From Marinomonas hwangdonensis (GTDB lineage: Bacteria > Pseudomonadota > Gammaproteobacteria > Pseudomonadales > Marinomonadaceae), in NCBI RefSeq assembly GCF_003721245.1, contig NZ_RIZG01000013.1:1-64000 (forward strand): a stretch of 64,000 bases of DNA. The letters run 5' to 3'. Under the pieces are notes generated by a model. That model worked only from the letters and a program-made list of their open reading frames with translations, was not told the DNA's origin and ran no database searches. The translations under genes and the position numbers were made by a program. Positions 11,218 to 26,837 of this stretch are shown here, one piece after another (position 1 is the first letter of the stretch; every line of letters starts with the position of its first letter).

Positions 11218-12585
11218 CTATAGATCGGTCAAAGTACCGAGCGCTCTTTCAGCAGCAAAAGCTAGGGTTTCTGACAGTGTCGGATGAGCATGAACAACAA
11301 GGGCAAGGTCTTCTAGTGTGGCACACATCTCTATTGCCAATGTGAGTTCTGCTAACAATTCACCCGCATTCATACCAATGATGGTACCACCCAAAATACG
11401 ATGTGATTCCGTACAGTAGACAATCTTAGTCAAACCGTCATGGCCGCCAGACGCCAGATTTCGACCACTGGCAAGCCAAGGAAAGGACGTTGTTTTCGGC
11501 TGATAACCCTGTTCTTTTGCCTCTTCTAGATTTAATCCAATCCAAGCCAATTCGGGATCGGTATAAGCCACAGAAGGAATCAAAGAGGTATTCATTTGCA
11601 CTTTATGACCGCAAATAACCTCGGCTGCGACTTTGCCCTGATGCGTCGCTCTATGCGCTAACATTGGCATGCCGGTGACGTCTCCAATGGCAAAAATGTT
11701 CGGTACAGACGTACGACATTGATCGTCTATGGTAATAATGTCTTGCTGATTACGATGAATGCCAGCCGCATCACAATCAATCCCATCAGCATTTGAACGC
11801 CGACCAACCGATGAAATAACCACATCATAATCTCTGCTGTGCCCGTCGCTAAATGCCAGAGAAACCCCTGTATCCGAAGGAGTCACTTGGTCAACTGAAG
11901 TACCCAAAAGAAATTCACAACCAAAGTTACTAAGCTGTTGACGGAGTATTTTTACCGCCTCTTTATCCACCATGGGCAACAGATCTTTACTAAGCTCAAC
12001 CAATGTGACCTTTGAGCCAAGAGCGCTGTAAATGGTCGCCATTTCCAAGCCAATAATGCCCGCCCCAACAATAGCAAGATTTTCAGGCACCTCAGGCATT
12101 TCCAAAGCGCGAGTAGAATCCCAAATTCGTTTGTGTGTTGGCCAGTTAGCTAACGCAACAGTGCGTGAACCCACGGCAATAATGGCATGCTCAAATGTAA
12201 AAACATCGTTCCCTGCTTGTAAGGTATTAGGCCCAATAAATACCCCTTTTTCATGAACCACTTTCACTTTTCGACGAGAAGCTAATCCGCCCAATCCACC
12301 CGTTAAATTGCCTACTATTTGATCCTTACTGTTGATCAACTTTTTAATATCAATTTTAGGAGGCTGGAACACAACACCATAATGTTCAGCCTGTTTGGCT
12401 TCGCGAATAATTTTCGCAACATGCAGTAAGGCTTTAGAAGGAATGCAGCCTTCATTAAGACAGACACCGCCTAGGGTATCTCTCCCTTCAACGATTAAAA
12501 CATTTAGCCCAAGGTCTGCTGCACGAAAAGCGGCCGCATAACCTCCTGGTCCGCCACCGAGTACTAATAATTGAACGTCTGCCAT
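11218..12585 (-). CDS. lpdA: Dihydrolipoyl dehydrogenase (E3)
   Basis: The 455-residue flavoprotein re-oxidises the dihydrolipoyl arm with NAD. It shows the N-terminal FAD fold (LVLGGGPGGYAAAFRAADLG), the redox disulfide GGVCLNEGCIPSKALLH (about residues 40-56), the NAD-binding GAGIIGLEMATIYSALG, the second FAD motif IFAIGDVTGMPMLAHRA, and a dimer-interface segment VHAHPTLSETLAFAAE with the His-Glu pair. It is the last gene of the operon, three bases after the E2 catalytic gene, and is followed by a strong terminator. As the operon also has E1 and E2, this E3 is probably dedicated to that complex. Length is slightly below the usual 465-475. Confidence 0.95.
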   Translation of the reverse strand: MADVQLLVLGGGPGGYAAAFRAADLGLNVLIVEGRDTLGGVCLNEGCIPSKALLHVAKIIREAKQAEHYGVVFQPPKIDIKKLINSKDQIVGNLTGGLGGLASRRKVKVVHEKGVFIGPNTLQAGNDVFTFEHAIIAVGSRTVALANWPTHKRIWDSTRALEMPEVPENLAIVGAGIIGLEMATIYSALGSKVTLVELSKDLLPMVDKEAVKILRQQLSNFGCEFLLGTSVDQVTPSDTGVSLAFSDGHSRDYDVVISSVGRRSNADGIDCDAAGIHRNQQDIITIDDQCRTSVPNIFAIGDVTGMPMLAHRATHQGKVAAEVICGHKVQMNTSLIPSVAYTDPELAWIGLNLEEAKEQGYQPKTTSFPWLASGRNLASGGHDGLTKIVYCTESHRILGGTIIGMNAGELLAELTLAIEMCATLEDLALVVHAHPTLSETLAFAAERALGTLTDL

Positions 12586-12588
12586 GAT

Positions 12589-13425
12589 TTACACCATCAG
12601 TCTTTTTGGCTCATCAAGTAGAGAGCAAAAATATTTAAGGAATTTGGCGGCTTCTGCCCCATTGATCACACGGTGGTCGTACGTTAAATCAAGGGGCAGC
12701 TTGCTTTCGGGTAAAAACACTTCACCATTCCACACAGGCTCCACTACCGTTTTTGTAATACCGAGAATAGCCACCTCTGGTGGATTAACGATCGGTGTGA
12801 AGTGTGTCCCTGAAATACCACCAAGGCTTGAAATCGTTATTGAGGCACCACCAAAATGGCTACTCTTCAACTTTTTCTCTCTCGCTGCAGTCGATAATTC
12901 AATGATTTCATTAGCAATTTCAACAAGGCCTTTTTTGTCTGCGTTTCGAATAACTGGCACAACCAAACCATAGTCCGTGTCGACCGCAATACCAATATGA
13001 ACGTAACTTTTTAGTACTAACGACGAAAAGTCTGGGGTCAATGAACTGTTAAAGCGAGGGAATTGCTTCAATGCTTTTGCCAACGCTTTAACAAAAAACG
13101 CCAATGACGATAGCTTGACGTTTAACGACAGCATTTCATCTTTTAAGGAACGCCTAAAAGCTTCGAGTTGATCCACATTCGCTTTATCACCATGGGTAAC
13201 TGTTGGAATCGTTTGAGAAGCGACCAACAGATTCTCTGCCGCCAATAAAGCAATTTTACTCAAAGGCTCTTGCGTCACTTCACCATAAGCACTGTGATCA
13301 ACTTGCCAATATTTAGCCGCATTTGAAGCCGGATTTGATTGTGATGTACCCGTCGATTCTACATCGCCACCAGCAAAAGCCTGCGCTCGCTTGGAAGGCG
13401 TCGTATTGGGAATGAGTGTTTTCAT
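12589..13425 (-). CDS. Free-standing E2 acyltransferase catalytic domain
   Basis: The 278-residue protein aligns to the C-terminal catalytic domain of 2-oxoacid dehydrogenase E2 (pyruvate-type): VTQEPLSKIALLAAENLL, TIPTVTHGDKANVDQLEAF, ITISSLGGISGTHFTPIVNPPEVAILGI and the active-site DHRVINGAEAAKF. It has no lipoyl or E3-binding domain; those are on a separate gene (14877-15881). Asn in DHRxxNG is normal for some E2p proteins. A roughly 35-residue Ser/Ala/Gly-rich N-terminal tail could be the linker end. It should form the trimer-based E2 core. It lies between the aldehyde dehydrogenase and E3 genes with gaps of 3-4 bases, so is translated from the same mRNA. Confidence 0.88.
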   Translation of the reverse strand: MKTLIPNTTPSKRAQAFAGGDVESTGTSQSNPASNAAKYWQVDHSAYGEVTQEPLSKIALLAAENLLVASQTIPTVTHGDKANVDQLEAFRRSLKDEMLSLNVKLSSLAFFVKALAKALKQFPRFNSSLTPDFSSLVLKSYVHIGIAVDTDYGLVVPVIRNADKKGLVEIANEIIELSTAAREKKLKSSHFGGASITISSLGGISGTHFTPIVNPPEVAILGITKTVVEPVWNGEVFLPESKLPLDLTYDHRVINGAEAAKFLKYFCSLLDEPKRLMV

Positions 13426-13429
13426 CTGA

Positions 13430-14866
13430 TCACCACACCGTTGAAATATATTGTGATTCCATGAATTCTAATAGACCTTCATGACCGCCTTCACGACCTA
13501 ACCCTGACTGTTTTACGCCACCAAATGGCGCGGCTGGATCAGATACTAAACCGCGGTTTAAACCGACCATACCAAATTCAAGTTGTTCGCATATCTGCAA
13601 GCCACGCTTCATGTCTTCTGTAAAGACATAAGCGACCAATCCATACTCCGTATCGTTGGCTCTTTTTATGACATCCGCTTCGTCACTAAAAGTTTGAATA
13701 ACAGCAACCGGACCGAAAATCTCATCGGATAAACACTCTGCGCCCTCTGGCACATTGCTTAGGACCGTTGGCGGATAAAAGAAGCCAGATCCGGTTGGTA
13801 ATTCACCGCCCAACTCAACTTTCGCGCCACGTTGCACAGCATCGTTAACAAAGTGACTCACCTTGTCTCTCGTAGCCGCATTCACCAGTGGCCCAACATC
13901 CACACCCGTTTCTAAACCGTTGCCCATTTTCAACTTGGACATGGCTTGAGTGAATTTTTCTGTAAACACATCCGCAATAGATTCATGCACATAGAAACGA
14001 TTTGCCGCTGTACAGGCCTCGCCTAAATTGCGCATTTTTGCCAGCATAGCGCCCGTCACCGCAACATCGATGTCGGCGTCATGAGCCACAATGAGTGGCG
14101 CATTGCCGCCTAATTCCATAGCAGGCTTTAAGACTTGATTAGCAGACTGCTTGAGTAAGTTTCTGCCAACCGCGGTTGATCCAGTAAAAGAAACCACTCT
14201 TACTCTAGGGTCATTCATAATGACCTCAGAAACCTCTCTGGGGTGTTGAGTTGGGATAACATTAACCACCCCTTTTGGCACACCCGCTTCTTCTAGTAAG
14301 GCAACCAACGCCAATAAGGTTAATGGCGTTTCCGTCGCTGGCTTAACGATAACGGTGCAGCCTGCGGCTAATGCAGGGGCGATTTTTCTTGTGCCCATTG
14401 CTGCAGGGTAGTTCCATGGTGTGATCAAATACGCGATCCCCGCCGGTTTATGGTGAACAAGAATTCGAGCACCACTCGACGGCGCGGTAGATAAAATACC
14501 ATCTGCTCTCACCGCTTCTTCGGCAAACCAACGAAAGAACTCAGCAGCGTAAACCGCTTCACCCATGGCGTCGTTACTCGCTTTGCCATTTTCTAAGGTA
14601 ATAAGTTTGGCAAACTCTGGCAAACGCGCCGTCATTAATTCAAACGCTTTGCGAAGAATCTCACTACGCTCACGTGGTGTTTTTCCGCGCCATGCTGGCG
14701 CCGCATTGGCCGCTGCGTCTAATGCCAAAGAGGCATCTTCTGTCTCCGCGGATGCACAATGGGTTAACACCGTCTCATCAGCAGGGTTGATCACATCAAA
14801 CACCTTCTTCGAAGATGAATCACGCCATTCGCCATTGATGTACAGCTGATTTTTAAAAATAGTCAT
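13430..14866 (-). CDS. NAD(P)-dependent aldehyde dehydrogenase, succinate-semialdehyde dehydrogenase-like
   Basis: This 478-residue enzyme has the ALDH hallmarks: NYPAAMGTRKIAPALAAGCT, VVSFTGSTAVGRNL (NAD contact), the general-base Glu in MELGGNAPLIV (about residue 253) and the nucleophile Cys in GEACTAANRFYV (about residue 287). The C-terminal NRGLVSDPAAPFGGVKQSGL is typical of the GabD/SSADH group, which oxidises succinate semialdehyde and similar short omega-oxo acids. Its place inside the 2-oxoacid dehydrogenase operon, between the lipoyl-carrier and E2 genes, suggests it oxidises an aldehyde made in the same pathway. The substrate cannot be read from the sequence. Confidence 0.9.
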   Translation of the reverse strand: MTIFKNQLYINGEWRDSSSKKVFDVINPADETVLTHCASAETEDASLALDAAANAAPAWRGKTPRERSEILRKAFELMTARLPEFAKLITLENGKASNDAMGEAVYAAEFFRWFAEEAVRADGILSTAPSSGARILVHHKPAGIAYLITPWNYPAAMGTRKIAPALAAGCTVIVKPATETPLTLLALVALLEEAGVPKGVVNVIPTQHPREVSEVIMNDPRVRVVSFTGSTAVGRNLLKQSANQVLKPAMELGGNAPLIVAHDADIDVAVTGAMLAKMRNLGEACTAANRFYVHESIADVFTEKFTQAMSKLKMGNGLETGVDVGPLVNAATRDKVSHFVNDAVQRGAKVELGGELPTGSGFFYPPTVLSNVPEGAECLSDEIFGPVAVIQTFSDEADVIKRANDTEYGLVAYVFTEDMKRGLQICEQLEFGMVGLNRGLVSDPAAPFGGVKQSGLGREGGHEGLLEFMESQYISTVW

Positions 14867-14876
14867 AACCAGATTC

Positions 14877-15881
14877 CTATAGCAATTGACGAAGAGGCTG
14901 CGAAATTCGACGTGTTATTTCAGATAACAACACAATGGCTTGTTTCGGACGAATAACGTTCGTATCAAAACGCAATTCAACCGTCCACTGCTCCCCGCCA
15001 AACACACTGATATTCAACTTAGCGTCGCTGTCTAATTCAAACCCGGCAATGGATGACTCGGTAAAATCCCAAAGACTGACAAAACCGTTTTCATCCTGTG
15101 ATTTTTGCAAATCCCCCAACCCCACAAGATCAGGATTAAGCAGACAACAATCATCAGCTGGAATGACCACACTGCAGTCGAGATCAGACTCAATGACCTT
15201 GGTATAACGCAATGCACCAGCGACCAACACCGCAAGCAATTCGGCACGAGATACAGACAATTCATCCGACGCTAACCACTGTTCTGTTACGACTATCGCA
15301 TCTGGACTGACGACACTGTGTACTTTCCCCATACTAGATGCGACGTGTTTTTGTCGGATTTTTGGCTCATAAGCCATCACGTCAGCCGCATGGATCGGTT
15401 GTTGTACCCCGTCATCCGTCAGATCCGATATCGCTATGCCGCGGTCTCTTAACAAGGATTTCGCTTTAGGAGACGCGAGAATTTTCCCACCAACGGACGG
15501 CAATTCTGTTTTTACCAATCCCGTATTATGAGATGGTTGTGGCGTTGTCACTTGAACAGGCGCTTTTTCAGCGACAGGGGCTTCAGTAGTGACCGCCTTG
15601 CTGGTATCTACTTCTGGGCTAGCTGAGTCAAGATCTGACTCAGGCTGCGCGGTAAGTTGAGCAATAACATCTCCAACGGGCACTTCCGCACCCGCCTCGT
15701 ATTTCACATGAGACAGGTAACCTTCATACCTAGATTCAATGTCTTGAACGGCTTTGTCTGTCTCAACAGACATAACCACATCACCTGAAGCGACCCACTC
15801 TCCTGGCTGTTTAAGCCATTCAGCTATAATCCCGGTATCTTGGTTCATGCCAAGAACAGGCATAATAATATCGTGTGACAT
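14877..15881 (-). CDS. Lipoyl/E3-binding protein with degenerate acyltransferase domain (E3BP-like)
   Basis: Domains in order: a lipoyl domain (residues 1-78) with the lipoyl-Lys in VETDKAVQDIES; a Pro/Thr/Ala linker (about 80-125); a peripheral-subunit-binding domain (ILASPKAKSLLRDRGIAISD, about 131-165); and a C-terminal domain (about 180-334). The last 32 residues align with the E2 catalytic end encoded at 12589-13425 (LTYDHRVINGAEAAKFL), but here the motif reads FDTNVIRPKQAIVLL: the catalytic His is Thr and the following N-G is R-P. It is therefore probably inactive as an acyltransferase and resembles eukaryotic E3BP (protein X). Its start codon overlaps the E1 beta stop. It probably carries the swinging arm and docks E3 while the free-standing E2 supplies catalysis. 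Confidence 0.85.
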   Translation of the reverse strand: MSHDIIMPVLGMNQDTGIIAEWLKQPGEWVASGDVVMSVETDKAVQDIESRYEGYLSHVKYEAGAEVPVGDVIAQLTAQPESDLDSASPEVDTSKAVTTEAPVAEKAPVQVTTPQPSHNTGLVKTELPSVGGKILASPKAKSLLRDRGIAISDLTDDGVQQPIHAADVMAYEPKIRQKHVASSMGKVHSVVSPDAIVVTEQWLASDELSVSRAELLAVLVAGALRYTKVIESDLDCSVVIPADDCCLLNPDLVGLGDLQKSQDENGFVSLWDFTESSIAGFELDSDAKLNISVFGGEQWTVELRFDTNVIRPKQAIVLLSEITRRISQPLRQLL

Positions 15882-16864
15882 TAGCGTTCTCCCGTTACAA
15901 GCTTAACCGCTTTATCGGCCACTCCAGCAGCCGTTGGTACGGTGAGATCTTCTAATGCTGGAGAAAATGGAATAGGTACATCCATCGCGCCCATTCGAGT
16001 CAACGGGGCATCTAAATAGTAAAATGCTTGTTCATTTAATCGAGCCACAATCTCTGAGGTGACACCAAAACTTTGATGACCTTCATCCACCACGATGGCA
16101 CGTCCTGTTTTCTTAACAGATTCAACCAAAGTGTGTTCATCTAATGGTGCGATGGTACGGACGTCAATGACTTCGGCACTGATGCCTTTTTCTGCTAGGA
16201 TTAAGGCCGCTTCTTCACAAACCTGCACCATTGATGATGTGCCGATCAGTGTAATGTCTGTGCCTTGTGAAATAACATTAGCTTGTCCAAACGGAATGAA
16301 ATATTCCTCTTCAGGAACAGGACCTTTCATTTGATATGACAGCTTATCTTCAAAAATAACCACTGGGTTGTTATCGCGAATGGCTGTTTTCATCAAGCCT
16401 TTAACTTCATAAGGCGTAGATGGCATCGCAACTTTAATACCAGGAATATGTGCAACAAGGGCTTGTAGACTTTGACTGTGTTGAGCCGCACTTCGTCGCG
16501 TAGCACCCATATTCGTGCGCACGACCAAAGGAACAGTCAGCTTACCCCCAGACATGTAATGCTGTTTAGCGGCTTGGTTAGCGAGCTGATCCATGATCAA
16601 GTAAATGAAATCCCCAAACATCAAATCCACAATGGGTCTCATACCTGTTAAAGACGCACCTACGGCCATTCCCATAAATCCGGGCTCTGAAATTGGCGTA
16701 TCTAGAACGCGCTGTGTACCAAACTCTTCTACTAAGCCTGATGTAACTTTGAACGGCGTGCCCGCTTCAGCAACATCTTCGCCCATAATAAAAACCGTTT
16801 CATCGTGTCGCATCTCTTCAGCAATGGCTTCGTTCATTGCTTGCGACCATGTAATATTTCTCAT
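15881..16864 (-). CDS. 2-oxoacid dehydrogenase E1 component, beta subunit
   Basis: The 327-residue protein has the E1-beta pattern: EEMRHDETVFIMGEDVAEAGTPFKVT, GFMGMAVGASLTGMRPIVDLMFGDF, and the C-terminal VIDVRTIAPLDEHTLVESVKKTGRAIVVDEGHQ with the TPP/E2-docking residues. It pairs with E1 alpha in an alpha2-beta2 decarboxylase that transfers the acyl group to lipoyl-Lys. I chose the ATG at 16864 (MRNITWSQAMNEA), which has GGAG at good spacing; the 27 residues upstream in frame look spurious. The pyruvate/acetoin branch cannot be separated by eye. The gap from E1 alpha is 19 bases. Confidence 0.93.
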   Translation of the reverse strand: MRNITWSQAMNEAIAEEMRHDETVFIMGEDVAEAGTPFKVTSGLVEEFGTQRVLDTPISEPGFMGMAVGASLTGMRPIVDLMFGDFIYLIMDQLANQAAKQHYMSGGKLTVPLVVRTNMGATRRSAAQHSQSLQALVAHIPGIKVAMPSTPYEVKGLMKTAIRDNNPVVIFEDKLSYQMKGPVPEEEYFIPFGQANVISQGTDITLIGTSSMVQVCEEAALILAEKGISAEVIDVRTIAPLDEHTLVESVKKTGRAIVVDEGHQSFGVTSEIVARLNEQAFYYLDAPLTRMGAMDVPIPFSPALEDLTVPTAAGVADKAVKLVTGER

Positions 16865-16883
16865 TAAAATTCTCCAGTCTCTA

Positions 16884-17864
16884 TTAATCGACGAACACGT
16901 GCATATCGACTTCGGATTCATCTGGATATGGAGCATCCAGCGCATAACTCACGGCATCGGCAGCCTCTTTTTTTATTGCCGCTTTGAACTCATCCAACTC
17001 TTGCTGAGTCGCCCATTCATTGGAAACAAGCACCTCGGCCAAAAGCAAAATGGGGTCACGCTCCGTTTTCCAATGCTGCTCTTCTTCTTTGCTGCGGTAA
17101 TAGGTTCTATTAACATCACCAACGTGGTGACCATGATAACGATAAGTATCCAAGACAATAAAAAATGGACCTTCTCCTTCGCGAGCACGTGCCACTAATT
17201 TTTCTGACAGCGCATTCACTGCAACAAAATCTTGACCATCGACTCTATGTGTCTCAATGCCAAACGCCTCAGCTCTGGCTGTCAAAGAGCCAGCCGCCAT
17301 CTCGTCAACATGCGTGTATTCCCCATACATGTTGTTTTCACAAGCATATATAACAGGGAGACTCCACAGCGCGGCCATGTTCATTACTTCATAGAGCAAG
17401 CCTTGCCCTAGGGCACCATCGCCAAAGAAACACACAGTAACATCGTCTTTGCCTAACATTTTAGAGCGAAGTGCTGCGCCCGTTGCTATCCCCGCACTGC
17501 CCCCAACAATCGCATTTGCCCCCAAATTACCGTTACTTTGGTCAGCAATATGCATTGAGCCACCTTTGCCTCGGCAGTAGCCTTCTTCTTTTCCAAGCAG
17601 CTCACAAAACATCAATTTAAGGTTGGCCCCTTTAGCAACACAATGACCGTGCCCTCGGTGCGTACTGGTGATATAATCAGTACTTTTTAAAGCCTCACAA
17701 ATCCCTACGGCAACCGCTTCTTGGCCGCTGTACATGTGAGTTAAACCTGGCATTTTTGCGGTTAGGTATAATTCATTCGCATTGTCTTCAAATTCTCGAA
17801 TGGTCACCATTTGTCGATAAGCTTGCAGTAAGCGTGGTATGTCTTTTGTTGTTAGATTTGTCAT
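16884..17864 (-). CDS. 2-oxoacid dehydrogenase E1 component, alpha subunit
   Basis: This 326-residue TPP-dependent subunit shows MYSGQEAVAVGICEAL, HRGHGHCVAKGA, GKGGSMHIAD, and the thiamine-binding GDGALGQGLLYEVMNMAALW ending in ENNMYGEYT (about residues 150-190), plus TYRYHGHHVGD of the phosphorylation-loop region. Members of this short E1-alpha group include acetoin dehydrogenase and pyruvate dehydrogenase. The presence of an ABC importer, SDR, M24 protein and ALDH in the same cluster argues for a dedicated catabolic 2-oxoacid or alpha-hydroxyketone substrate rather than housekeeping pyruvate dehydrogenase. It is first of the complex genes, preceded by the FmdB-like gene 21 bases upstream. 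Confidence 0.93.
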   Translation of the reverse strand: MTNLTTKDIPRLLQAYRQMVTIREFEDNANELYLTAKMPGLTHMYSGQEAVAVGICEALKSTDYITSTHRGHGHCVAKGANLKLMFCELLGKEEGYCRGKGGSMHIADQSNGNLGANAIVGGSAGIATGAALRSKMLGKDDVTVCFFGDGALGQGLLYEVMNMAALWSLPVIYACENNMYGEYTHVDEMAAGSLTARAEAFGIETHRVDGQDFVAVNALSEKLVARAREGEGPFFIVLDTYRYHGHHVGDVNRTYYRSKEEEQHWKTERDPILLLAEVLVSNEWATQQELDEFKAAIKKEAADAVSYALDAPYPDESEVDMHVFVD

Positions 17865-17885: not shown

Positions 17886-18278
17886 TTAATGATTGTGACC
17901 ACAGCTTGAACCATGACTATGACTATGTCCGCAACCAGAACCATGACTGTGACTGCTGTGCTTTTGCTCACTGACACCGCCAGTTACTGTACGACGACTA
18001 TCAATCGAGCCGTAGCGTGGCGTTTCACGAGAATTGGCAAACATTTGCTGTGCAAGCGCACTGTTTGATGCGCATCCACATGCTGTGGCGGCAGGGGATT
18101 TTTTATTCACCTTGACGTGCTCTCTGATTCCGTTGTAACGAATCGAAACACCTGGAACAATCACTCTAACGAGCTCTTCGCCCGTTTCTGGGTGTTGCGT
18201 GTATCGCGGATCGGCCATTTTTTGCATGAAGTCAAAGCGTTCGCCTGTTGCTGTAGATTCGTAGGTATAGATAGGCAT
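17886..18278 (-). CDS. FmdB-like protein lacking zinc-ribbon Cys, with His-rich tail
   Basis: The 130-residue protein begins MPIYTYESTATGERFDFMQ, the shape of the FmdB zinc-ribbon family (MPIYEYxCxxCG), but the four zinc Cys are replaced: YESTATG and HPETGE stand where CxxCG and CPxCG are expected. The middle has a single ACGCA cluster (about residue 67), and the last about 25 residues are a His/Ser/Gly/Cys tail with HSHGSGCGHSHSHG, a probable metal-binding tail. The start has AAGGAGG six bases upstream. It lies between the M24 gene and E1 alpha. FmdB proteins were linked to amidase regulation; a metal-delivery role for the neighbouring enzymes is my inference. Confidence 0.7.
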   Translation of the reverse strand: MPIYTYESTATGERFDFMQKMADPRYTQHPETGEELVRVIVPGVSIRYNGIREHVKVNKKSPAATACGCASNSALAQQMFANSRETPRYGSIDSRRTVTGGVSEQKHSSHSHGSGCGHSHSHGSSCGHNH

Positions 18279-18346: not shown

Positions 18347-19648
18347 TTAGTATGGATTCGCCACAAACAAATCTTGCGCAGGAAACAGGGTAATCACTCG
18401 ACAACCCGTCGCCGTTACCACAATTTCTTCTTCAATTCGCGCGGCGCCGTTACCATCAGCAGCAGGGCAATAGGTTTCCAAAGCAAACACCATCCCTTCT
18501 TTAAGCTCAAATGGGTTACCGAAAGACACAAGACGACTAATAATCGGCCGTTCGTGCAACGCAAGTCCCAAACCATGTCCGAACTGCAAACCAAAGGCTT
18601 CCATTTCAGAATCAAAACCAAACTCTTGTGCTCGCGGCCAAACAGCGGCGATTTTGTCGGTTGTCATACCAGGTCTTACTAATGCAATGGCATTGTCAAT
18701 CCATTCTCTTGCTTTAGCATAAGCGTCCACCTGAGCCTGTGTTTTGCTACCAACATTTAATGTGCGGTAATAACAGGTGCGATAACCCATGTACGACTGG
18801 ATGATATCGAAAAACGCTTGATCACCAGGGCGATACATGCGATCGGTGAAATTGTGAGGGTGTGGTGAACAACGCTCACCTGAGACGGCGTTGATTGCCT
18901 CAACATCATCTGAACCATTGTCATAAAGAAACTTATTGGCAATGGCCACTAACTCGTTTTCACGTTTGCCAGGTTTTAGTTCGTCTGCAATCAACTGATA
19001 CGCCCCATCGACCATAGAGGCAGATTGGTTGAGTAAGATGATTTCATCCATACTTTTAATTTGGCGTGCATTCAACATCACTTGCTGAACATCACGAACC
19101 TCAATACCCTCTTTCTGTAATGCAAACAGCATGGGGGGCTCACATACGTCGACACCGATTGGCATACCGAAGACGCCTTCCTGTTTTAGCAAGTCGGCAA
19201 TCTCTTTCGCGGCATTGGCAAACAATCCTGCCTCTTCACCAACCGAACCACGCAACCCCAACATACCAGCACGCCAGTGGTCTGTTTCAAACCATGGATT
19301 GTGTAAACGGTGATGAGCGGCGGCGCTACCAAAGTCCCAAAGATAAGGATCTGAATTACCAGTAAATAACGCATAACGACAAAATTTGTCCCGCGACCAC
19401 TCACCAATAACGCTGCTGGTTAAATAACGGATATTGTTATTATCGAAACACAACATTGCACCAAGATCTGACTCTTGTAGTGCCTTGCGTGCTCTGGCAA
19501 CTCGATAACGATGAAGCCGTCTAAAGTCGACACGCTCTTCAAAGTCGACATTCATCCGACCTGGGGCAGGAATGGGAACATCCCAATTCCAACGAGGGTC
19601 TAGATCAGAAGTGATTATTTCTTTGTTGCCTGGAGTAATAATTGTCAT
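18347..19648 (-). CDS. M24 family (creatinase/aminopeptidase P-fold) protein with altered metal site
   Basis: The 433-residue protein has a creatinase N-terminal domain (about 50-190, with LGAMLCFDNNNIRYLTS) and a C-terminal pita-bread domain. Counting canonical M24 ligands: Asp281 is present (FFDIIQSYMGYR), the second Asp position is Cys292 (RTCYYRT), His358 is present in FGHGLGLALHE, Glu391 in ALETY, and a Glu in RIEEEIVV (406-408). So four of five ligands remain and one is Cys. M24 members include prolidase, creatinase (no metal) and the DMSP lyase DddP; this one fits none fully. The cluster context suggests hydrolysis or lyase action on the imported compound. About 430 residues is usual for the family. 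Confidence 0.82.
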   Translation of the reverse strand: MTIITPGNKEIITSDLDPRWNWDVPIPAPGRMNVDFEERVDFRRLHRYRVARARKALQESDLGAMLCFDNNNIRYLTSSVIGEWSRDKFCRYALFTGNSDPYLWDFGSAAAHHRLHNPWFETDHWRAGMLGLRGSVGEEAGLFANAAKEIADLLKQEGVFGMPIGVDVCEPPMLFALQKEGIEVRDVQQVMLNARQIKSMDEIILLNQSASMVDGAYQLIADELKPGKRENELVAIANKFLYDNGSDDVEAINAVSGERCSPHPHNFTDRMYRPGDQAFFDIIQSYMGYRTCYYRTLNVGSKTQAQVDAYAKAREWIDNAIALVRPGMTTDKIAAVWPRAQEFGFDSEMEAFGLQFGHGLGLALHERPIISRLVSFGNPFELKEGMVFALETYCPAADGNGAARIEEEIVVTATGCRVITLFPAQDLFVANPY

Positions 19649-19679: not shown

Positions 19680-20480
19680 CTACTGCATTATCATGCCGCC
19701 GTCGATCATTAATAACTGACCAGTCATGTAGTCAGAATCCGGTGCTGCTAAGAATACAGCGGTACCCACAACATCTTTCGGATAGGAATAGCGCTTCATC
19801 AGAATCATGTCAGCCGCTAACTGATCCATTGAATCGCCTTCTTTCTCGAATTTACCGATGGCTACTAAGTCTTTATCTAGTTGTTCCCACAGCTCAGTTC
19901 TCACAACACCTGGACCATAGCCATTGACCGTAATGTTATGATCAACCAAGGCTTTGGCACCGCCATTGATCATGGCTAGCACAGCGTGCTTAGAGCAAGA
20001 ATACGGAACCACATCATCAAAAGCTTGGCGCGAAAGAATAGAGCCCACGTTGATGATTTTATAAGGGCCATTTTCTTTACCCTGCGCAATCATCTGTTTT
20101 GCGGCTTCTTGCATACCCACTAAAACGCCCCAGGCGTTTACTTTCATGATCTGATTCCAGTTTTCTTCAGTGATATCTAAAAACATTAACGGTTTGTTGA
20201 TGCCGGCATTATTGACGATGACATTTAAGCTGCCGAACGCGTCCACAGTAGCCTTTACCGCCGCAACCATTTGCTCTCGGTTAGTCACATCAAGTGACAC
20301 TGCAATCGCTTCACCACCTTCAGATTGAATTCTTTTTACTACTTCTTCGCAGCCGCTAACATTCAAGTCAGCCACACATACTTTTGCACCTTGCTTTGCG
20401 TACTCTTCTGCAACCGCAGCCCCCATCCCTTGAGCAGCGCCTGTGATCAATACATTTTTTCCAGCTAAACGTTGAGACAT
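19680..20480 (-). CDS. Short-chain dehydrogenase/reductase (SDR)
   Basis: The 266-residue classical SDR has the NAD-binding TGAAQGMGAAVAEEYAKQG, the NNAGI motif, a Ser in NVGSILSRQAF and the catalytic YSCSK (Tyr-x3-Lys, about residues 160-164). The end YMTGQLLMIDGGM is typical. Enzymes of this type oxidise sugar alcohols, acetoin/butanediol or similar secondary alcohols. The ATG at 20480 is chosen because GAGG lies eight bases upstream; an in-frame codon 20 residues further up lacks a site. It is the first structural gene after the LacI gene, and two LacI-type operators lie in the 471-bp gap in front of it. Confidence 0.9.
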   Translation of the reverse strand: MSQRLAGKNVLITGAAQGMGAAVAEEYAKQGAKVCVADLNVSGCEEVVKRIQSEGGEAIAVSLDVTNREQMVAAVKATVDAFGSLNVIVNNAGINKPLMFLDITEENWNQIMKVNAWGVLVGMQEAAKQMIAQGKENGPYKIINVGSILSRQAFDDVVPYSCSKHAVLAMINGGAKALVDHNITVNGYGPGVVRTELWEQLDKDLVAIGKFEKEGDSMDQLAADMILMKRYSYPKDVVGTAVFLAAPDSDYMTGQLLMIDGGMIMQ

Positions 20481-20708
20481 TTTGTTTTCCTCACTATTTT
20501 TATTAATTATCGTTTTATGTAGCCGTTGCTCTTTAATCACTTCAGAAATAAAGAAAGGCTAACTGCTTTTCTTGTCGCGGTTTCTTCGCTTAGAAACACT
20601 TAGGCAAAAAAAGGGGTTTGCAACTGCATGAAAGACCAATTTCACTTCAGAATTTCATAATCTAATAACACAACTCTGTACTGGTGATTAATTATACACC
20701 CAAATTCA

Positions 20709-20722
20709 TGCAATCGATTACA
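20709..20722. promoter_or_regulatory. LacI-family operator, proximal
   Basis: TGCAATCGATTACA is a one-mismatch copy of the perfect palindrome 170 bases further upstream, with the same CAATCGATT core. Confidence 0.65.
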
Positions 20723-20879: not shown

Positions 20880-20897
20880 AATGCAATCGATTGCATT
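20880..20897. promoter_or_regulatory. LacI-family operator, distal, perfect palindrome
   Basis: AATGCAATCGATTGCATT is a perfect 18-bp palindrome with the central CG typical of LacI/PurR operators. It lies 55 bases past the stop of the LacI gene and about 400 bases upstream of the SDR start. The spacing to the second site would allow looping. Confidence 0.8.
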
Positions 20898-20951: not shown

Positions 20952-21998
20952 TCAACGCTTACTGCCGTTTGCAGCGGCCGTCGACTGTCGAACAACCAAG
21001 TGCGGTGACATCAATAGTCGCTGTTTGCTGGGCCATGGTGCATTAATTTCTTGCAACAGCATTTTAGCCGCTTGAACACCAATTTCCTGAAAAGGCACCG
21101 ATATCGTTGTAATGGATGGGTTCACTATGTCAGTCAGTGGCATATTGTTAAATCCGCAGATTGAAATATCCTCAGGGATTCTCAAATTCACTTTTCGACA
21201 CGCTTCAATCGCACCCAATGCCATCAAATCATTTGCCGCAATCCAACCTGTTGCAGCACATCCTGAACGCAAATACTTTTCGGCCGCATCTCGCCCTGCC
21301 TCAACACTAAACGCGTAGGTATCGTCTTGATCATAATCGACGATATCAAAGGCGATATTTCTTTGTAAGCAGAAACCTTCAAACGCCTCACGACGCCTCA
21401 AACTTTGTAAAATTGTATTCGGGCCTGACAAATACACTAGGTGCTTATGTCCTAGTGAAAGCAAATGATTAACCGCTAAATCAATACCGTGCTGCTCATC
21501 GCTTAACACTTGATGAACTAACTCGCCTTTACGTATAGAACGATTAACCAAAACAAGTGGCACATTTTGTGAGATACACTCGTTAACACTCTCATCCTCT
21601 AAAAACGCGCTGGCAATAATAAGACCATCGACGTTGCGCATAATAAGACGCCTTACTTCTTCTAAAGCCTCGTCCTGATTGTTGTTGCTGGCAACAAAAA
21701 TAGTCACGTAACCTTTACTGGACAAGTAACTCTGAATGCCTTTAATCATGGGTGGAAAGATAGGGTTGAGAATATCCGGAATCACAACCCCTATCGTGTT
21801 TGTCACCTGAGTTCTTAGTGAGGCTGCACCAATGTTGGGGATATAACCCAGCTTTTGTGCCATCTCACGTACACGTTTTATCTGGTCTTTTCCGATCAAA
21901 CTTTCAGTCTTTGGGTTTAGAGCACGAGATACTGTTGCCGAGCTAATGCCCAACTTATCTGCTATGTCTTTAATTCGTACCCGTTCGCGCTTAGACAT
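20952..21998 (-). CDS. LacI family transcriptional regulator of the catabolic locus
   Basis: The 348-residue repressor has an N-terminal LacI helix-turn-helix (RIKDIADKLGISSATVSRALN, residues 8-28), a hinge helix, and a periplasmic-binding-protein-like ligand domain (NTIGVVIPDILNPIFPPMIKGI; VDGLIIASAFLED; AANDLMALGAIEACRK). AAAGG precedes the ATG at 21998. It sits between the ABC transporter operon and the SDR-E3 operon, both read in the same direction. Operators with CAATCGATTG are found in front of the SDR gene, so it probably represses that operon until the imported substrate or a product binds. Confidence 0.92.
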   Translation of the reverse strand: MSKRERVRIKDIADKLGISSATVSRALNPKTESLIGKDQIKRVREMAQKLGYIPNIGAASLRTQVTNTIGVVIPDILNPIFPPMIKGIQSYLSSKGYVTIFVASNNNQDEALEEVRRLIMRNVDGLIIASAFLEDESVNECISQNVPLVLVNRSIRKGELVHQVLSDEQHGIDLAVNHLLSLGHKHLVYLSGPNTILQSLRRREAFEGFCLQRNIAFDIVDYDQDDTYAFSVEAGRDAAEKYLRSGCAATGWIAANDLMALGAIEACRKVNLRIPEDISICGFNNMPLTDIVNPSITTISVPFQEIGVQAAKMLLQEINAPWPSKQRLLMSPHLVVRQSTAAANGSKR

Positions 21999-22196: not shown

Positions 22197-23702
22197 TCAA
22201 GCTAATTTGGAAACCCCCGAAATCGCTTGAACTAGGTTATCTTCTGTTACTTCTCCACATTCAAATGTCCTGGTAACGCGGCCCGAATACATGGCAACAA
22301 TACGATCAGACACATGCATCACTTCAGGCATTTCTGAACTAATCACAATAACTGCAAGCCCTTTTGACGCCAGTTTACGCAATAATTTGTGGATCTCTGA
22401 CTTAGAGCCAACATCAATCCCACGAGTGGGTTCATCCACTATTAATACGTTAGGCTTCATGGACAGCCATTTTGCAATAACGATTTTTTGTTGGTTGCCA
22501 CCAGAAAGGTTACCAACATCCTGCTTCCATCCTGGCGTGCGTATGTCCAAGCTGTCTCGATACTGATCGAAGATCGCAATTTCAGCGCCCTCAGCCACAA
22601 AAGGACCCGCCGTAATATCGTCGACTTGTGGCAAGGTCATATTGTCACGACAGTTCATCCCTAACACCAAGCCTTGCCCCTTGCGGTCTTCAGGTACTAA
22701 AGAGATCCCTTTTTCAATCGCGTCCCGCGGTGATTTAACGTCAATGACTTCGCCATTTAACAAAATCTCACCGCTACTCTTGTTACGTAAACCAAACAAG
22801 GTCTCAGCAATCTCTGTTCTACCCGCACCAACCAGTCCGTAAAACCCCACCACTTCACCACTGCGTACTTGAAAAGACACATCGTTGAAGGCTTTACCTG
22901 AACTAAGATTGCGCACTTCTAAGGCTATTTTTCCGAGTTCGTGGTTTGACTCTTTTCTGGTTAGATCAAGCTTACGCCCAATCATCATTTGAGTAACACC
23001 TTCTTCATCGGTGTCTTTGGTCGCGACAGATCCTTGGTATTGGCCATCACGAAGCACAGAAATACGATCTGTAATTTTAAAAATTTCTTCCATACGATGG
23101 GAAATGTAGACCACGCCAACATCATTTGCCTGCAAATCAGAAATCACGTCAAAGAGTACGCGTTTCTCAGCATCGGTGAGAGACGCCGTTGGCTCATCAA
23201 AAATAACGACTTTAGCCTCAACCGTAAGCGCACGCGCTATTTCCACCATCTGCTGATTCGCAATCGATAGATCTTTAACTAGCGTCTTTGCATCAAATCC
23301 CACTTTAAGCTTCGCCAAAATCGCGTCGGTCTTTTGATAAAGCTCATGCCAATCAACTCGGCCAAAGCCTTTTGTAGGCAGCTCGCCAAGGTACACGTTT
23401 TCAGCAACACTCAACTCTTCAGCAAGACTCAACTCTTGATGAATAAATACGATGCCTAATGCCTTTGCTTCAAGCGGACCATTCATTACCACTGGACGTT
23501 CGTTAACAATTACTTGGCCTTCATCTGGCTGGTGAATACCGCCCAAAACCTTCATCAACGTCGATTTACCCGCACCATTTTCACCCATTAGTGCGTGAAC
23601 TTCGCCAGGAAGGACAGACAAGGAAACACCATCTAGCGCTCTAACTCCCGGAAAAGTCTTAACAATATTTTCCAGTCGTAAAACAGGGGTTGGAGTATTC
23701 AT
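22197..23702 (-). CDS. Sugar ABC transporter ATP-binding protein (RbsA-like)
   Basis: The 501-residue protein has two fused nucleotide-binding domains as in RbsA/XylG/MglA. The first has an intact Walker A GENGAGKSTLMK (about 40), signature LSIANQQMVEIARAL and Walker B VVIFDEPTASLT. The second has the usual degenerate GLVGAGRTE and a good LSGGNQQKIVIAKWL signature with NVLIVDEPTRGID. It energises import through the two permeases encoded just upstream; its start overlaps the end of the first of these by 4 bases. It is the last gene of the transporter operon, followed by a 198-bp gap and then the LacI gene. Confidence 0.93.
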   Translation of the reverse strand: MNTPTPVLRLENIVKTFPGVRALDGVSLSVLPGEVHALMGENGAGKSTLMKVLGGIHQPDEGQVIVNERPVVMNGPLEAKALGIVFIHQELSLAEELSVAENVYLGELPTKGFGRVDWHELYQKTDAILAKLKVGFDAKTLVKDLSIANQQMVEIARALTVEAKVVIFDEPTASLTDAEKRVLFDVISDLQANDVGVVYISHRMEEIFKITDRISVLRDGQYQGSVATKDTDEEGVTQMMIGRKLDLTRKESNHELGKIALEVRNLSSGKAFNDVSFQVRSGEVVGFYGLVGAGRTEIAETLFGLRNKSSGEILLNGEVIDVKSPRDAIEKGISLVPEDRKGQGLVLGMNCRDNMTLPQVDDITAGPFVAEGAEIAIFDQYRDSLDIRTPGWKQDVGNLSGGNQQKIVIAKWLSMKPNVLIVDEPTRGIDVGSKSEIHKLLRKLASKGLAVIVISSEMPEVMHVSDRIVAMYSGRVTRTFECGEVTEDNLVQAISGVSKLA

Positions 23703-24700
23703 ACTTTTAATTCCTCTCGTCCTTTGATATTAATCTGACGATCTAAAAAGAGCACAAGAATCAAAATACTGCCGATTACCAAATTAACAGTGGAAGTATC
23801 CGCTCCAATATGACCAAGCCCTTTTCGTAGTAGCTGAATAGCAATGACGCCGCCTAACGTAGACAGAATAGAACCTGAGCCACCTGTCAGTTTGGTCCCT
23901 CCTAACACGACCGCTGTAATAATCCACAACTCATAGAGCTGTCCATCATTGGGATTAACCGAACCACTTTCAGAATAAAAAACGACAGCGGATAACGCAG
24001 CTAAAAAGCCGATCAACATAAAGTTGATCATCATGTGAGGCCCAACACGTATACCTGCATTGACTGCCGCTTCACGATTGTTACCAATAGCATAGGCGTT
24101 TCGTCCGTGCACTGTGCGGTTCATTAGGTACCAAATGGCCGCCGTCACAACGAGTAGAAACCAAGTGGCCGTGTGCAAACCTAAAAACTGAGCTTCTGCA
24201 AAATCTACTAACGTCCAATTCAAATGCGACGTCGGATTTTCCCCATTGAACATGAAAACCAATCCACGAAAGCCCAGCATAGAGCCAAGGGTAACAATAA
24301 AAGCGTCAACCCCTGTCTTCCAAGCGATGAGTCCGTTGATCGCACCAAGGAGCGTACCGACTAGTAATGCGGCCCCCCAAGCGATAGGAATAACCCAGTC
24401 CCCAAGTCCTTCGAACATAGGAGAAGACATCGTCTCTAAGAGAACGATCGCTGCGATAGCAAAGGTCGCTCCTACACTAAGATCGATATTACCGTTTATC
24501 ATTATGATGGCCATGCCCATCGCTATGATGCCTATGGGAGCAGACTGTTTAAGCAATAACAGCATGTTGTCTACATCCATAAAAGCCTTATCACTTAAAG
24601 ATAAGTAACTACCAGCAACACTAAAGAACACCAACTCAAAAAGAATAAAGATCCAAATGGGGCTGGCTTTCAGGAGTACTTTTACATTAATTGATTTCAT
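23699..24700 (-). CDS. Sugar ABC transporter permease 2 (RbsC-like)
   Basis: The 333-residue membrane protein of the ribose/xylose permease family (BPD_transp_2) has about eight to ten hydrophobic segments. It includes IMINGNIDLSVGATFAIAA (about residues 65-83), the conserved AAVNAGIRVGPHMMINFMLIGFLAALSAV loop region and VVLGGTKLTGGSGSILSTLGGV. It forms a heterodimeric channel with the permease encoded immediately upstream (13-bp gap). The presence of two different permeases, unlike the E. coli ribose system, is typical of sugar-alcohol or rhamnose-type importers. Confidence 0.92.
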   Translation of the reverse strand: MKSINVKVLLKASPIWIFILFELVFFSVAGSYLSLSDKAFMDVDNMLLLLKQSAPIGIIAMGMAIIMINGNIDLSVGATFAIAAIVLLETMSSPMFEGLGDWVIPIAWGAALLVGTLLGAINGLIAWKTGVDAFIVTLGSMLGFRGLVFMFNGENPTSHLNWTLVDFAEAQFLGLHTATWFLLVVTAAIWYLMNRTVHGRNAYAIGNNREAAVNAGIRVGPHMMINFMLIGFLAALSAVVFYSESGSVNPNDGQLYELWIITAVVLGGTKLTGGSGSILSTLGGVIAIQLLRKGLGHIGADTSTVNLVIGSILILVLFLDRQINIKGREELKV

Positions 24701-24713: not shown

Positions 24714-25685
24714 CTACGCCAGAGGTGACCACAATTTGCCTCGTTTACCCGCAATATCGAGCCAGACAGCCAAAATAATAATGACCCAGGTAACCACAAA
24801 CTGCACATAGAACTGCAAACCCATTAACAACAGGCCATTCTGAATAAAACCTAACATCAAGACACCTACTACCGTTTTCGCTATCGTACCTGCACCGCCT
24901 AGTAACGAAGCTCCCCCCAAAATAACGGCTGCTAGCACTTCTAGTTCTAAACCCTGACCAACCGTATTTTGACTCCCCAATGAACGGCTCGCTTGAATCA
25001 AGCCTGCCGTAGCCACACAAAAAGAAGAGATTAAATAACAGAAAAACACGGTTTTACTGCGGCTAATGCCTGAAAATGTAGCAGCAGTACCATTACCACC
25101 AACGGCATAGATTTTTCGACCAAAAGGCGTTTTCGACAGAATAATACCGAGCAAGGCCGCCAGTAACGCAAATATCAGGATCGGCACTGGAATGCCCATA
25201 ACACTGTCCTGCCCAAAAAAGCTGAACCAAGAGCTCTTATCTGAGATGTCCATATTTTTGCCGCCAGAATACGTCAGCGTAAGACCATGTATTGCGGACA
25301 ACATCCCAAGAGTCACTATTAACGAATTGAGGCGAAGATAACCGACTAAGAAACCGATTAAAGCGCCTAATAAAAGAGTGAGGCTGAACATGGCAAGAAT
25401 GGCGAGTACAGGGCCAATTTTGTCATGGAGATCTAACACAACGATAGTGGAGAAGGACATCATCGAGCCAATCGATAAATCTAGATTCCCACTCACTACC
25501 ACGAACGTGACACCAAGCGCCATGACACCAATAATAGCGGATGAACGAATAACACTAAGTACATTGTCAGCCGATATGAATTTTGCTTCTGCCAGCGCAA
25601 AAACGAGCATAAAGATTACAAAGGCTGCGAGTATTCCCTGTTTACCGAGAAAACGTATCGCCTCATCTTTACTGAGTCTCAACAT
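24714..25685 (-). CDS. Sugar ABC transporter permease 1 (RbsC-like)
   Basis: This 323-residue inner-membrane permease belongs to the same family as the next gene: MALGVTFVVVSGNLDLSIGSMMSFSTIVVL, AATFSGISRSKTVFFCYLISSF, and AVILGGASLLGGAGTIAKTVVGV. I use the ATG at 25685 (MLRLSKDEA) because GGAGG lies six bases upstream; a GTG seven codons earlier lacks one. Two hairpins separate it from the binding-protein gene, which should lower its expression relative to the binding protein, as in many such operons. Confidence 0.9.
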   Translation of the reverse strand: MLRLSKDEAIRFLGKQGILAAFVIFMLVFALAEAKFISADNVLSVIRSSAIIGVMALGVTFVVVSGNLDLSIGSMMSFSTIVVLDLHDKIGPVLAILAMFSLTLLLGALIGFLVGYLRLNSLIVTLGMLSAIHGLTLTYSGGKNMDISDKSSWFSFFGQDSVMGIPVPILIFALLAALLGIILSKTPFGRKIYAVGGNGTAATFSGISRSKTVFFCYLISSFCVATAGLIQASRSLGSQNTVGQGLELEVLAAVILGGASLLGGAGTIAKTVVGVLMLGFIQNGLLLMGLQFYVQFVVTWVIIILAVWLDIAGKRGKLWSPLA

Positions 25686-25770
25686 CCGATCCTCCAGTGA
25701 GTGCACATTATTTAATTTTTATTATTAAAACTGACCAGCACACTAATCAGCAACAAGATTATTAGGCCTT

Positions 25771-25803: not shown

Positions 25804-25842
25804 TCGCCTTAATAAATAAAAAGCTAAAAACACAAAAGCCTA

Positions 25843-25878
25843 GGTAACAGTCATAAGCAAACGCCATAGACTGTTACC
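25843..25878 (-). terminator. Intercistronic stem-loop 1 after binding-protein gene
   Basis: GGTAACAGTC and GACTGTTACC form a perfect 10-bp stem nine bases after the binding-protein stop, with a CTAGGCTTTTG stretch beyond it. Such hairpins often protect the highly expressed binding-protein mRNA or attenuate readthrough. Confidence 0.6.
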
Positions 25879-25886
25879 GATTATTT

Positions 25887-26837
25887 TTAAAAAACAGGCT
25901 TGGTATAGTTACTCATATTATCTTGCGTGATCTTAGGAGTATCGAAATAGTTCAAGAAGGGAACGTCTTTGCCATTGAGAACATCAACCGCAGTCTGCAA
26001 TGCTGCTTTAGCATCATCGACAGGTGACTGATAAATTGAGCCCCAGTATTCACCGGCTGCCATGGCTTCATATCCAACCGCGAAATTAGTGGCGCCAACA
26101 AAAATAATACCATCACGACCAGCGGCTTTCGCTGCATTCAACGCACCCACGCCCATGTTGTCGTCACCAGCGTAAACACCATCAATGTTGTCGTATTTAA
26201 CCAGGAACGCTTCCATCACCTGTTGTGATTTTTCACGGTTCCAGTCACCTGGTTGTGTATCAATCACTGTGACTTGAGGGCACACTTCAGGTAAACGATT
26301 TTCAAAACCTTCCGCTCGCTCAGTAGCTGTTGTGTAACCAGGTTGACCTGTAATGTGAACGACCTTTGCCGTACTGGCGATGCCCATTGACTTGAACTTG
26401 TCGCACATAATTTCAGCGGAACGCTTACCTTGAGTGACGTTGTCAGGGCCAGAGAAAGCACTTATAAAATCAAAACCCGCTTTAGAAATATTAGAATTCG
26501 TCACGATGACCGGAATACCCGCACGTTTCGCTTTACGTACCGCAGGCACAACCGCTTCGCCATTGGTCGGCCAGATAATGATCGCATCCACACCTTGCTG
26601 GATTAAGTCTTCTACCTGAGCAATTTGACGTGCCACGTCACCGCCCGCATCCAACACAACCGCGTCAATGTTAGGATTCGCTCGTGCCGCTTCAGTAAAC
26701 GCTTTGTCATAAGTTGTCTGATAGCTATCAACGCCAACGTTGTTTTGAGTAATACCGATTGTCATGGCTGCAGCACCACCACTAAGAACCAAACTTGCCG
26801 TTGCTACCGCAGTAGCCAAAGATGTTTTAAATTTCAC
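25887..26837 (-). CDS. Periplasmic sugar-binding protein of ABC transporter
   Basis: The 316-residue protein has an N-terminal signal peptide (MKFKTSLATAVATASLVLSG, likely cleaved after the AAA near residue 24) and a type-1 periplasmic binding fold: VLDAGGDVARQIAQVEDLIQQGVDAIIIWPTN, GIPVIVTNSNI, GVYAGDDNMGVGALNAAKAAGR. It captures the substrate in the periplasm for the two permeases and ATPase encoded after it. It is the first gene of the operon, divergent from the unusual regulator gene at 27001. The ligand cannot be read from the sequence; the family covers ribose, xylose, sugar alcohols and autoinducer-type ligands. Confidence 0.93.
   Translation of the reverse strand: MKFKTSLATAVATASLVLSGGAAAMTIGITQNNVGVDSYQTTYDKAFTEAARANPNIDAVVLDAGGDVARQIAQVEDLIQQGVDAIIIWPTNGEAVVPAVRKAKRAGIPVIVTNSNISKAGFDFISAFSGPDNVTQGKRSAEIMCDKFKSMGIASTAKVVHITGQPGYTTATERAEGFENRLPEVCPQVTVIDTQPGDWNREKSQQVMEAFLVKYDNIDGVYAGDDNMGVGALNAAKAAGRDGIIFVGATNFAVGYEAMAAGEYWGSIYQSPVDDAKAALQTAVDVLNGKDVPFLNYFDTPKITQDNMSNYTKPVF

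Follow-up and report, generated by a model that had tools for sequence, protein, structure and literature searches.

What does a marine bacterium consume with a gene cluster that joins a sugar-type importer, a peptidase-like protein and a 2-oxoacid dehydrogenase complex? The question is raised by a locus of Marinomonas hwangdonensis (assembly GCF_003721245.1), analysed here within positions 1 to 64,000 of contig NZ_RIZG01000013.1 (hereafter, the window). Fourteen genes on the minus strand, running from 26837 down to 11218 according to the open reading frame (ORF) list and to Pfam and NCBIfam profile searches, encode in 5′ to 3′ order a solute-binding protein (SBP), two permeases, a CUT2 ATPase, a LacI-family regulator, a short-chain dehydrogenase (SDR), an M24-fold protein, an FmdB-type zinc ribbon protein, E1 alpha, E1 beta, a lipoyl carrier, an aldehyde dehydrogenase (ALDH), a catalytic E2 protein and E3 (Table 1). 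All 14 assignments agree with a preliminary description of this stretch, which had overlooked the gene of a probable regulator that is divergently oriented on the plus strand. The favored reading, for which the scales stand about level as regards the module and its general chemistry, is that the locus would be a dedicated catabolic module, in the window under a LacI repressor, for one small hydroxylated, probably anionic, marine metabolite.

A genome scan with the M24 protein returned 103 relatives, of which the best 80 (50-91% identity) were kept; the counts of loci given here refer to these 80. Their gene content was determined by scripted tblastn, in which a close SDR required at least 60%, and HIBADH and ALDH were counted at a loose similarity threshold and so at family level. 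The relatives come from gamma- and alphaproteobacteria, SAR324, actinobacteria, Chloroflexota, Clostridiales and one Ureibacillus. The conserved synteny that the preliminary description had suggested looking for is found widely: E1 is present in 55 loci, an ALDH like that of the window in 53, E2 or a lipoyl protein in 47, FmdB in 38, LacI in 32, GroEL in 12 and TauE in 11, with importers as well. A HIBADH-family dehydrogenase occurs in 35 loci and a close SDR in 18, either one in 53 and both together in none, an exclusion that is not strict: the roseobacter plasmid loci L089, L090 and L093 combine a more distant SDR with HIBADH, and in L138 and L140, extended stretches from Grimontia and Vibrio, HIBADH stands with a close SDR. 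Since the 3.46-Mb genome of the window has five E1_dh matches, three of them strong, a random 21-kb stretch would hold E1 in roughly 2-3% of cases; E1 is found in 30 of the 44 loci of at least 21 kb, and chance falls far short of explaining the gene set. When 35 genomes of the genus (the window's own and 34 others) were searched, only the window's genome had the M24 gene at full strength, with relatives of 29% in three others. Annotated plasmids of Phaeobacter, Tritonibacter, Pacificitalea and one further roseobacter carry most of the gene set, with no LacI or FmdB gene seen on them. This distribution pattern points to probable horizontal spread of the module; a search of viral contigs gave no relative of the M24 protein.

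Joint regulation gives a second line of evidence. The LacI operator pattern TGCAAWCGWTTGCA, with at most one mismatch, was found at 109 sites in 44 loci (60 sites exact), and for 93 of them the start of a recognised pathway gene is no more than 450 bases away; with 20 scrambled palindromes, the hits numbered 0-3 each. The gene behind the operator is M24 in 33 loci, LacI in 15, FmdB in 14, SDR in 12, HIBADH in 9, GroEL and the binding protein in 8 each, TauE in 7, a porin-like protein of Marinobacter in 5 and DctP in 4, and a site is present in 29 of the 32 loci that have LacI. A search of eight complete genomes gave 26 exact matches to the pattern and none to a reversed control; 24 of these sites lie in the M24 stretch or beside pathway genes, and two (G061:C4:350812 and G063:C19:8686) are unassigned. 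The window's genome has no sites with up to one mismatch other than the two upstream of the SDR-to-E3 operon. A local LacI regulon is therefore seen in this genome, in the eight others and in 44 of the 80 loci, and not in 36. Both sites lie in the 411-base gap at 20541-20951, upstream of SDR, so that the 14-gene block probably comprises two or more transcription units and not a single one. The single unit of the preliminary description thus holds as a catabolic unit, co-regulated through LacI operators in about half of the loci, and probably not as one transcript; likewise, its "few gaps" applies within each block, with three intergenic gaps longer than 150 bases overall (25707-25886, 21999-22196 and 20541-20951). 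Of the operator sites with no listed gene behind them, those in four loci stand at TonB-dependent receptor genes (identified by Pfam in L014, L030 and L041 and by eye in L059), and one in L059 stands at the gene of a Mo-hydroxylase 2Fe-2S subunit. The operator also precedes a GroEL gene within the module in L031, L039, L137, L138 and L142 (Marinobacter and relatives of Enterovibrio, Grimontia and Vibrio); the window's genome has a single GroEL, located elsewhere. In L034, 77 bases separate the start of an MCP chemoreceptor gene (2507-4594, minus strand) from a LacI-type site that has one mismatch.

The most distinctive member of the module is the M24 protein, whose metal-ligand positions in the alignment are D281, C292, H358, E391 and E406, the position of Cys292 being Cys in all 33 sequences. 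Xaa-Pro peptidases have the metal-ligand set Asp/Asp/His/Glu/Glu, of which the second Asp is here replaced by Cys292, and the score against the Xaa-Pro peptidase model PepQ_Arch (NF040821) is 86.8 bits, with an equivalog cut-off of 630. The ectoine hydrolase model DoeA (TIGR02993) gives 64.2 bits against a cut-off of 613. A dimethylsulfoniopropionate lyase is rejected on model score and ligands: the DddP model NF043017 gives 99.8 bits (curated cut-off 600), and where DddP has the set Asp/Asp/Asp/His/Glu/Glu, the window protein aligns D281, Ile, C292, H358, E391 and E406; identity to DddP is 21-22%. Among structural neighbors, DoeA and creatinases are close, and prolidases and DoeA match DddP in Z. 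The M24 protein is probably a metal-dependent enzyme, a peptidase look-alike that probably cleaves a bond other than that of peptidases. The adjacent FmdB-type protein, which scores 33.4 against Pfam PF09723, slightly below the cut-off of 34.4, is a candidate metal-handling partner of this enzyme.

The ALDH scores 551.7 against the SSADH subfamily model TIGR01780 (cut-off 646.35) and carries the anion-binding pair R160 and R279, which is kept in 42 of 43 ALDH frames (that of the window and 42 from one cluster), the sole exception, L006_15, being a distant paralogue. Because of this conservation, the ALDH very probably acts on an anionic aldehyde. As stated in one study, the pair binds the carboxylate in human SSADH and has been proposed to bind the sulfonate in sulfolactaldehyde dehydrogenase (PMC10599462). 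The ALDH may therefore precede the complex instead of acting on an aldehyde released by it, as the preliminary description had supposed; the order of SDR, M24 enzyme and complex proposed there appears compatible with the data. The SDR falls below the cut-off of TIGR02415 (234.9 bits against 304.35), and its likelier start, judged by eye, is about 20 codons downstream of the listed one.

The "dedicated 2-oxoacid dehydrogenase complex" of the preliminary description is present in changed form: it looks PDH (pyruvate dehydrogenase)-like, with E2 split over two proteins. E1 alpha scores 339.9 bits against the PDH equivalog TIGR03182 (cut-off 393.85); E1 beta exceeds the cut-off of the PDH-type subfamily model NF006667, and its listed start overlaps E1 alpha, the true one being by eye about 27 codons downstream. 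E2 gives 315 bits as a PDH acetyltransferase versus 174 as SucB, and Pfam finds the catalytic domain alone; the lipoyl domain usual for a PDH-type E2 sits on the separate carrier, which comprises a single lipoyl domain, a subunit-binding region and a C-terminal portion that lacks the E2 catalytic motif. Four further loci inspected (L142, L073, L085 and L089) show this split too; by eye, the lipoyl proteins bear one or two lipoyl domains, and their E2-like end is devoid of the motif. The E1 proteins of the 80 loci fall into three types (the window's in 8, a second in 27 and a fused alpha-beta form in 19), implying repeated joining or replacement of a 2-oxoacid dehydrogenase and, with it, favoring a functional link. 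As a separate observation, L105 (G000:C1:556000-574000) has a fused E1 alpha-beta gene and an E2 gene in the same genome, with no M24 gene recognised nearby.

The importer is more variable. It is of the CUT2 type in the window, and the type is exchangeable among loci (CUT2, tripartite ATP-independent periplasmic (TRAP) or a polar-amino-acid-type ATP-binding cassette (ABC) system), so that "sugar" is not established as its cargo; a TRAP importer occurs in 23 of 80 loci and a close CUT2 ATPase in 13 by tblastn. In an alignment of 16 rows (L085 appearing twice), the likely binding loops of the solute-binding protein are, by eye, near-identical between alpha- and gammaproteobacterial relatives.

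In the proposed pathway, the compound would enter through the CUT2 importer, or through TRAP or other systems in other lineages, and the SDR, elsewhere the HIBADH-family enzyme, would oxidise its alcohol to an anionic aldehyde, which the SSADH-type ALDH would convert to the acid. The M24 enzyme, with FmdB probably aiding metal supply, would then eliminate or hydrolyse a C-X group near the new carboxylate, giving a short 2-oxoacid that the PDH-like E1/E2/E3, with its lipoyl arm on a separate carrier, would turn into an acyl-CoA, most likely acetyl-CoA. The released anion X might be exported in lineages with TauE, whose position behind the LacI operator in seven loci suggests anion export. The leading guess for X is sulfite; the M24 enzyme would then fill the slot of SuyAB in dihydroxypropanesulfonate/sulfolactate breakdown. 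In the dihydroxypropanesulfonate pathway, HpsO and GabD-2 yield sulfolactate and SuyAB is the sulfolyase (PMC11131964); TauE has been proposed as the sulfite exporter of a related pathway (PMC12421959). Because of the parallel with HpsO, GabD-2, SuyAB and TauE, a sulfonated C3 polyol is the leading guess for the substrate, unlikely as it is on its own. A broader proposal, offered tentatively, is that the M24 subfamily with an invariant Cys for a metal-binding Asp represents a new class of C-S or C-N lyase, which would desulfonate or otherwise cleave a widespread marine metabolite and feed a dedicated acetyl-CoA-forming complex with a separate lipoyl arm (the window's type) under a shared LacI operator in many proteobacteria and some actinobacteria. 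Two further searches touch on sulfonates: the SAF domain PF08666 matched 10 of 10 member genomes, nearly all frames exceeding 230 residues and one having 101, a count that does not separate SuyA from other SAF proteins and so says nothing on SuyA; and sulfoacetaldehyde acetyltransferase was rejected for an acetolactate-synthase-like thiamine pyrophosphate (TPP) enzyme (a cluster in six loci), the one member scanned giving 253 bits against 676.

A number of observations weigh against the favored reading or its parts. Two metal-binding Asp positions of DddP are Ile and Cys in the window protein, and the catalytic base of DddP is presumably not kept either; among solved sequences, a prolidase scores best with the M24 profile (108 bits versus 104 for DddP), and two weaker prolidases also align over nearly the full length. 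CUT2 importers typically transport neutral sugars or polyols. Of the 80 loci, 36 have no operator, among them the nearest relatives L005-L008, SAR324 (0 of 3) and the three Firmicutes loci, and none of the nine plasmid loci has one. No E1 was seen in 25 of 80 loci within the stretch examined, 14 of these being at least 21 kb, a figure due in part to short stretches: in one Marinobacter genome the TRAP, E1a, E1b, carrier and E2 genes lie just outside L031, in the block behind a LacI site. Pyruvate as the 2-oxoacid would need no dedicated complex, given three further E2 genes in the window's genome, one frame of which has the length of AceF. As to sulfur, no sulfur-specific gene and no TauE were seen in the window locus, TauE occurs in only 11 of 80 loci, and the Arg pair cannot separate a carboxylate from a sulfonate; moreover, some sulfolactaldehyde dehydrogenases have His/Asn at these positions (PMC10599462). 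Lastly, neighbors of the IolG, ThuA, Mo-hydroxylase, LLM and flavin-reductase types in some lineages would suit other substrates.

These neighbors and the SDR lead to the alternatives. The best models for the SDR are acetoin reductase/butanediol dehydrogenase, and the ALDH gene of the window, like that of the Vibrio/Enterovibrio type, is placed between those of E1 beta and E2, much as aldehyde dehydrogenase genes occur near aco operons; the locus could accordingly be of the acetoin/butanediol type, in which the SDR would turn a vicinal diol prepared by the M24 enzyme into an alpha-hydroxyketone, the TPP complex would yield an acyl-CoA and an aldehyde, and the ALDH would oxidise the latter. However, the conserved Arg pair implies an anionic aldehyde and so not acetaldehyde, plain diols require no hydrolase or lyase, and other lineages use the HIBADH-family enzyme with no close SDR in the stretch, which leaves this scheme doubtful. 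If the M24 protein were instead a C-N hydrolase like creatinase or ectoine hydrolase, with oxidation steps around it, the module would serve catabolism of a nitrogen compound. The structural closeness of DoeA and creatinases favors this, as do several gene neighborhoods: an LLM oxidoreductase and a flavin reductase beside a nearly complete module (E1, E2, ALDH and LacI genes) on a Streptomyces plasmid, RidA or an amidase (Paenarthrobacter) and LLM (a haloarchaeon) beside M24 relatives, a flavin reductase near one gammaproteobacterial locus, and a polar-amino-acid-type importer within the Grimontia block; the Streptomyces, Paenarthrobacter and haloarchaeal cases count against the sulfonate guess as well. 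Yet the core set shows neither an aminotransferase nor any other recognisable amine gene, the actinobacterial and archaeal plasmid loci other than that of Streptomyces have no annotated E1 or E2 in the stretch shown, and the ectoine hydrolase model gives 64 bits, far short of the required 613, so that nitrogen catabolism is given a small chance of being right.

An ordinary sugar or cyclitol pathway, with the M24 gene as a passenger peptidase, would account for the CUT2 importer, for LacI, for the IolG-, ThuA- and GFO-type genes of some loci and for the polyol/sugar-binding proteins being nearest to the binding domain of the divergent gene. It is highly improbable: the LacI operator stands in front of M24 in 33 of 80 loci, M24 remains linked to E1 of three types, and the scanned genes (6097-30891) include no recognisable sugar kinase, isomerase or aldolase. 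Apart from these alternatives, L091, a Paenarthrobacter plasmid locus, has its M24 relative beside a RidA gene and near a flavin reductase annotated as a sulfonamide-class gene.

The divergent gene probably encodes a second, cytoplasmic regulator. Its relatives are annotated as extracellular solute-binding protein; by eye, the first ~190 residues contain no signal peptide and show a winged-helix pattern at 72-135, and the likelier start is the ATG at about 27001. Across residues 195-592, the SBP_bac_1 domain finds its matches among sugar/polyol-binding proteins (5iai ranks first; 4rya bears the name of a sorbitol-binding protein), and the window protein and five other sequences align across both parts. 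The predicted structure is poor (mean predicted local distance difference test (pLDDT) score 59.5, block means in the winged-helix region 57-83), and a fold search with that region lists mainly binding proteins; the proposal of DNA binding is based on sequence, secondary structure and palindromes. At least one ATCCATTTTGGAT-type site lies upstream of 9 of 11 such genes (the window included; L046 and L048 being one species, L019 and L028 having no site), and a pair 21 bp apart upstream of 5 of 11; by comparison, one or more sites occur in 9%, and two or more in 0.9%, of random stretches from these loci. If two mismatches are allowed, hits to ATCCATTTTGGAT are not rare across the genome of the window (76 forward versus 45 for a control), and the only exact match there is in front of the divergent gene. 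Genes of this helix-turn-helix (HTH)-SBP type occur in 8 of 80 loci; in L005, L006 and the roseobacter plasmids such a gene is found in place of the LacI operator, and the window has both.

At the other end, the hairpin behind E3 has the longest stem among 20 candidates of a hairpin scan that was overall near chance (16.4 ± 4.0 in shuffles). On its far side, it is adjoined by a canonical xanthine dehydrogenase set (two subunits and XdhC; 6097-10944, minus strand). Beyond the divergent gene, two overlapping ORFs of 650 and 1539 amino acids in different frames (28939-35350, minus strand), the first a GH94 protein, could be parts of a single split gene, for which their length suggests, as a guess, the cyclic-glucan-synthase type.

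Table 1. Features of the catabolic locus and its flanks, in window coordinates.
Feature	Position	Strand	Basis
Terminator-like hairpin and T run behind E3	11108..11144	-	15-pair stem, then seven T
E3 dihydrolipoyl dehydrogenase	11218..12585	-	TIGR01350, 469.4 over 408.8 (above equivalog cut-off)
E2 catalytic protein, PDH acetyltransferase type, motif DHRVING	12589..13425	-	PF00198
SSADH-type aldehyde dehydrogenase, Arg160/Arg279 anion-binding pair	13430..14866	-	PF00171
Lipoyl carrier, E3BP-like	14877..15881	-	PF00364
E1 beta	15881..16945	-	NF006667, 387.4 over 321
E1 alpha of 2-oxoacid dehydrogenase complex	16884..17864	-	PF00676; nearest solved chains are PDH E1 alpha
FmdB-type zinc ribbon, His/Cys-rich tail	17886..18278	-	TIGR02605, 33.1 over 31.3
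M24-fold protein, candidate C-X lyase or hydrolase	18347..19648	-	Profile, alignment and fold searches
Short-chain dehydrogenase, butanediol/polyol dehydrogenase group	19680..20540	-	TIGR02415; PDB 3wye, 1geg
Second LacI operator, 1 mismatch	20709..20722		Pattern search
LacI operator TGCAATCGATTGCA, upstream of SDR operon	20882..20895		Pattern search
LacI-family repressor	20952..21998	-	PF00356 and PF13377; operator conservation
CUT2 ATPase, RbsA-like, two ABC domains	22197..23702	-	Profile searches
CUT2 permease 2	23699..24700	-	PF02653
CUT2 permease 1	24714..25706	-	PF02653
CUT2-type periplasmic solute-binding protein	25887..26837	-	PF13407
Palindrome pair of ATCCATTTTGGAT type, spacing 21 bp, candidate operator for divergent gene	26955..26988		Pattern search
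Divergent probable regulator, N-terminal winged-helix-like region and SBP_bac_1	26983..28809	+	PF01547

The components of this widely distributed module are of known kinds and their combination is new. The preliminary description had known of no pathway with such a gene set, and no description of the locus was found in full-text literature on related gene sets, a search that covered open-licence papers and is weak as evidence of absence. Some actinobacteria, Saccharospirillum, Marinobacter, Vibrio relatives, Woeseiaceae, SAR324 and roseobacter plasmids share the module, and many of these lineages are marine; what it degrades is therefore probably a common compound, one for which a gene marker of breakdown has so far been missing. 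A group of proteins now annotated as Xaa-Pro peptidases would also gain a function.

Compared with known systems, the window's M24 protein shares with DddP a fold that is also common to ectoine hydrolase and prolidases; unlike DddP, it sits with a 2-oxoacid dehydrogenase module. HpsO is an SDR, and the dihydroxypropanesulfonate/sulfolactate pathway (HpsO, GabD-2, SuyAB and TauE) resembles the module in its SDR, in an SSADH-family ALDH with anion-binding Args and, in some lineages, in TauE, whereas the locus has M24 in place of SuyAB and adds a PDH-like complex, a CUT2 importer and LacI. With the aco system it has in common E1 alpha/beta, E2, E3, an aldehyde dehydrogenase and a butanediol-type SDR, and it differs from that system in the additional M24, FmdB, LacI and importer genes, in the anionic aldehyde expected for its ALDH and in the distribution of E2 over two proteins. 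PDH complexes with an E3-binding protein are similar in E1 alpha/beta, in E2 type and in having a lipoyl-bearing, catalytically empty E2-like partner; in contrast, the catalytic E2 of the window and of the four other loci with the split lacks a lipoyl domain, so that the arm must come from the partner. Finally, SgrR-type one-component regulators consist of an N-terminal DNA-binding region and a cytoplasmic binding-protein domain, an architecture resembled by the divergent protein, in which a probable DNA-binding region is joined to a binding-protein domain; differences from that type are the SBP_bac_1 domain (MalE/polyol group) and a candidate operator made up of a palindrome pair spaced by 21 bp.

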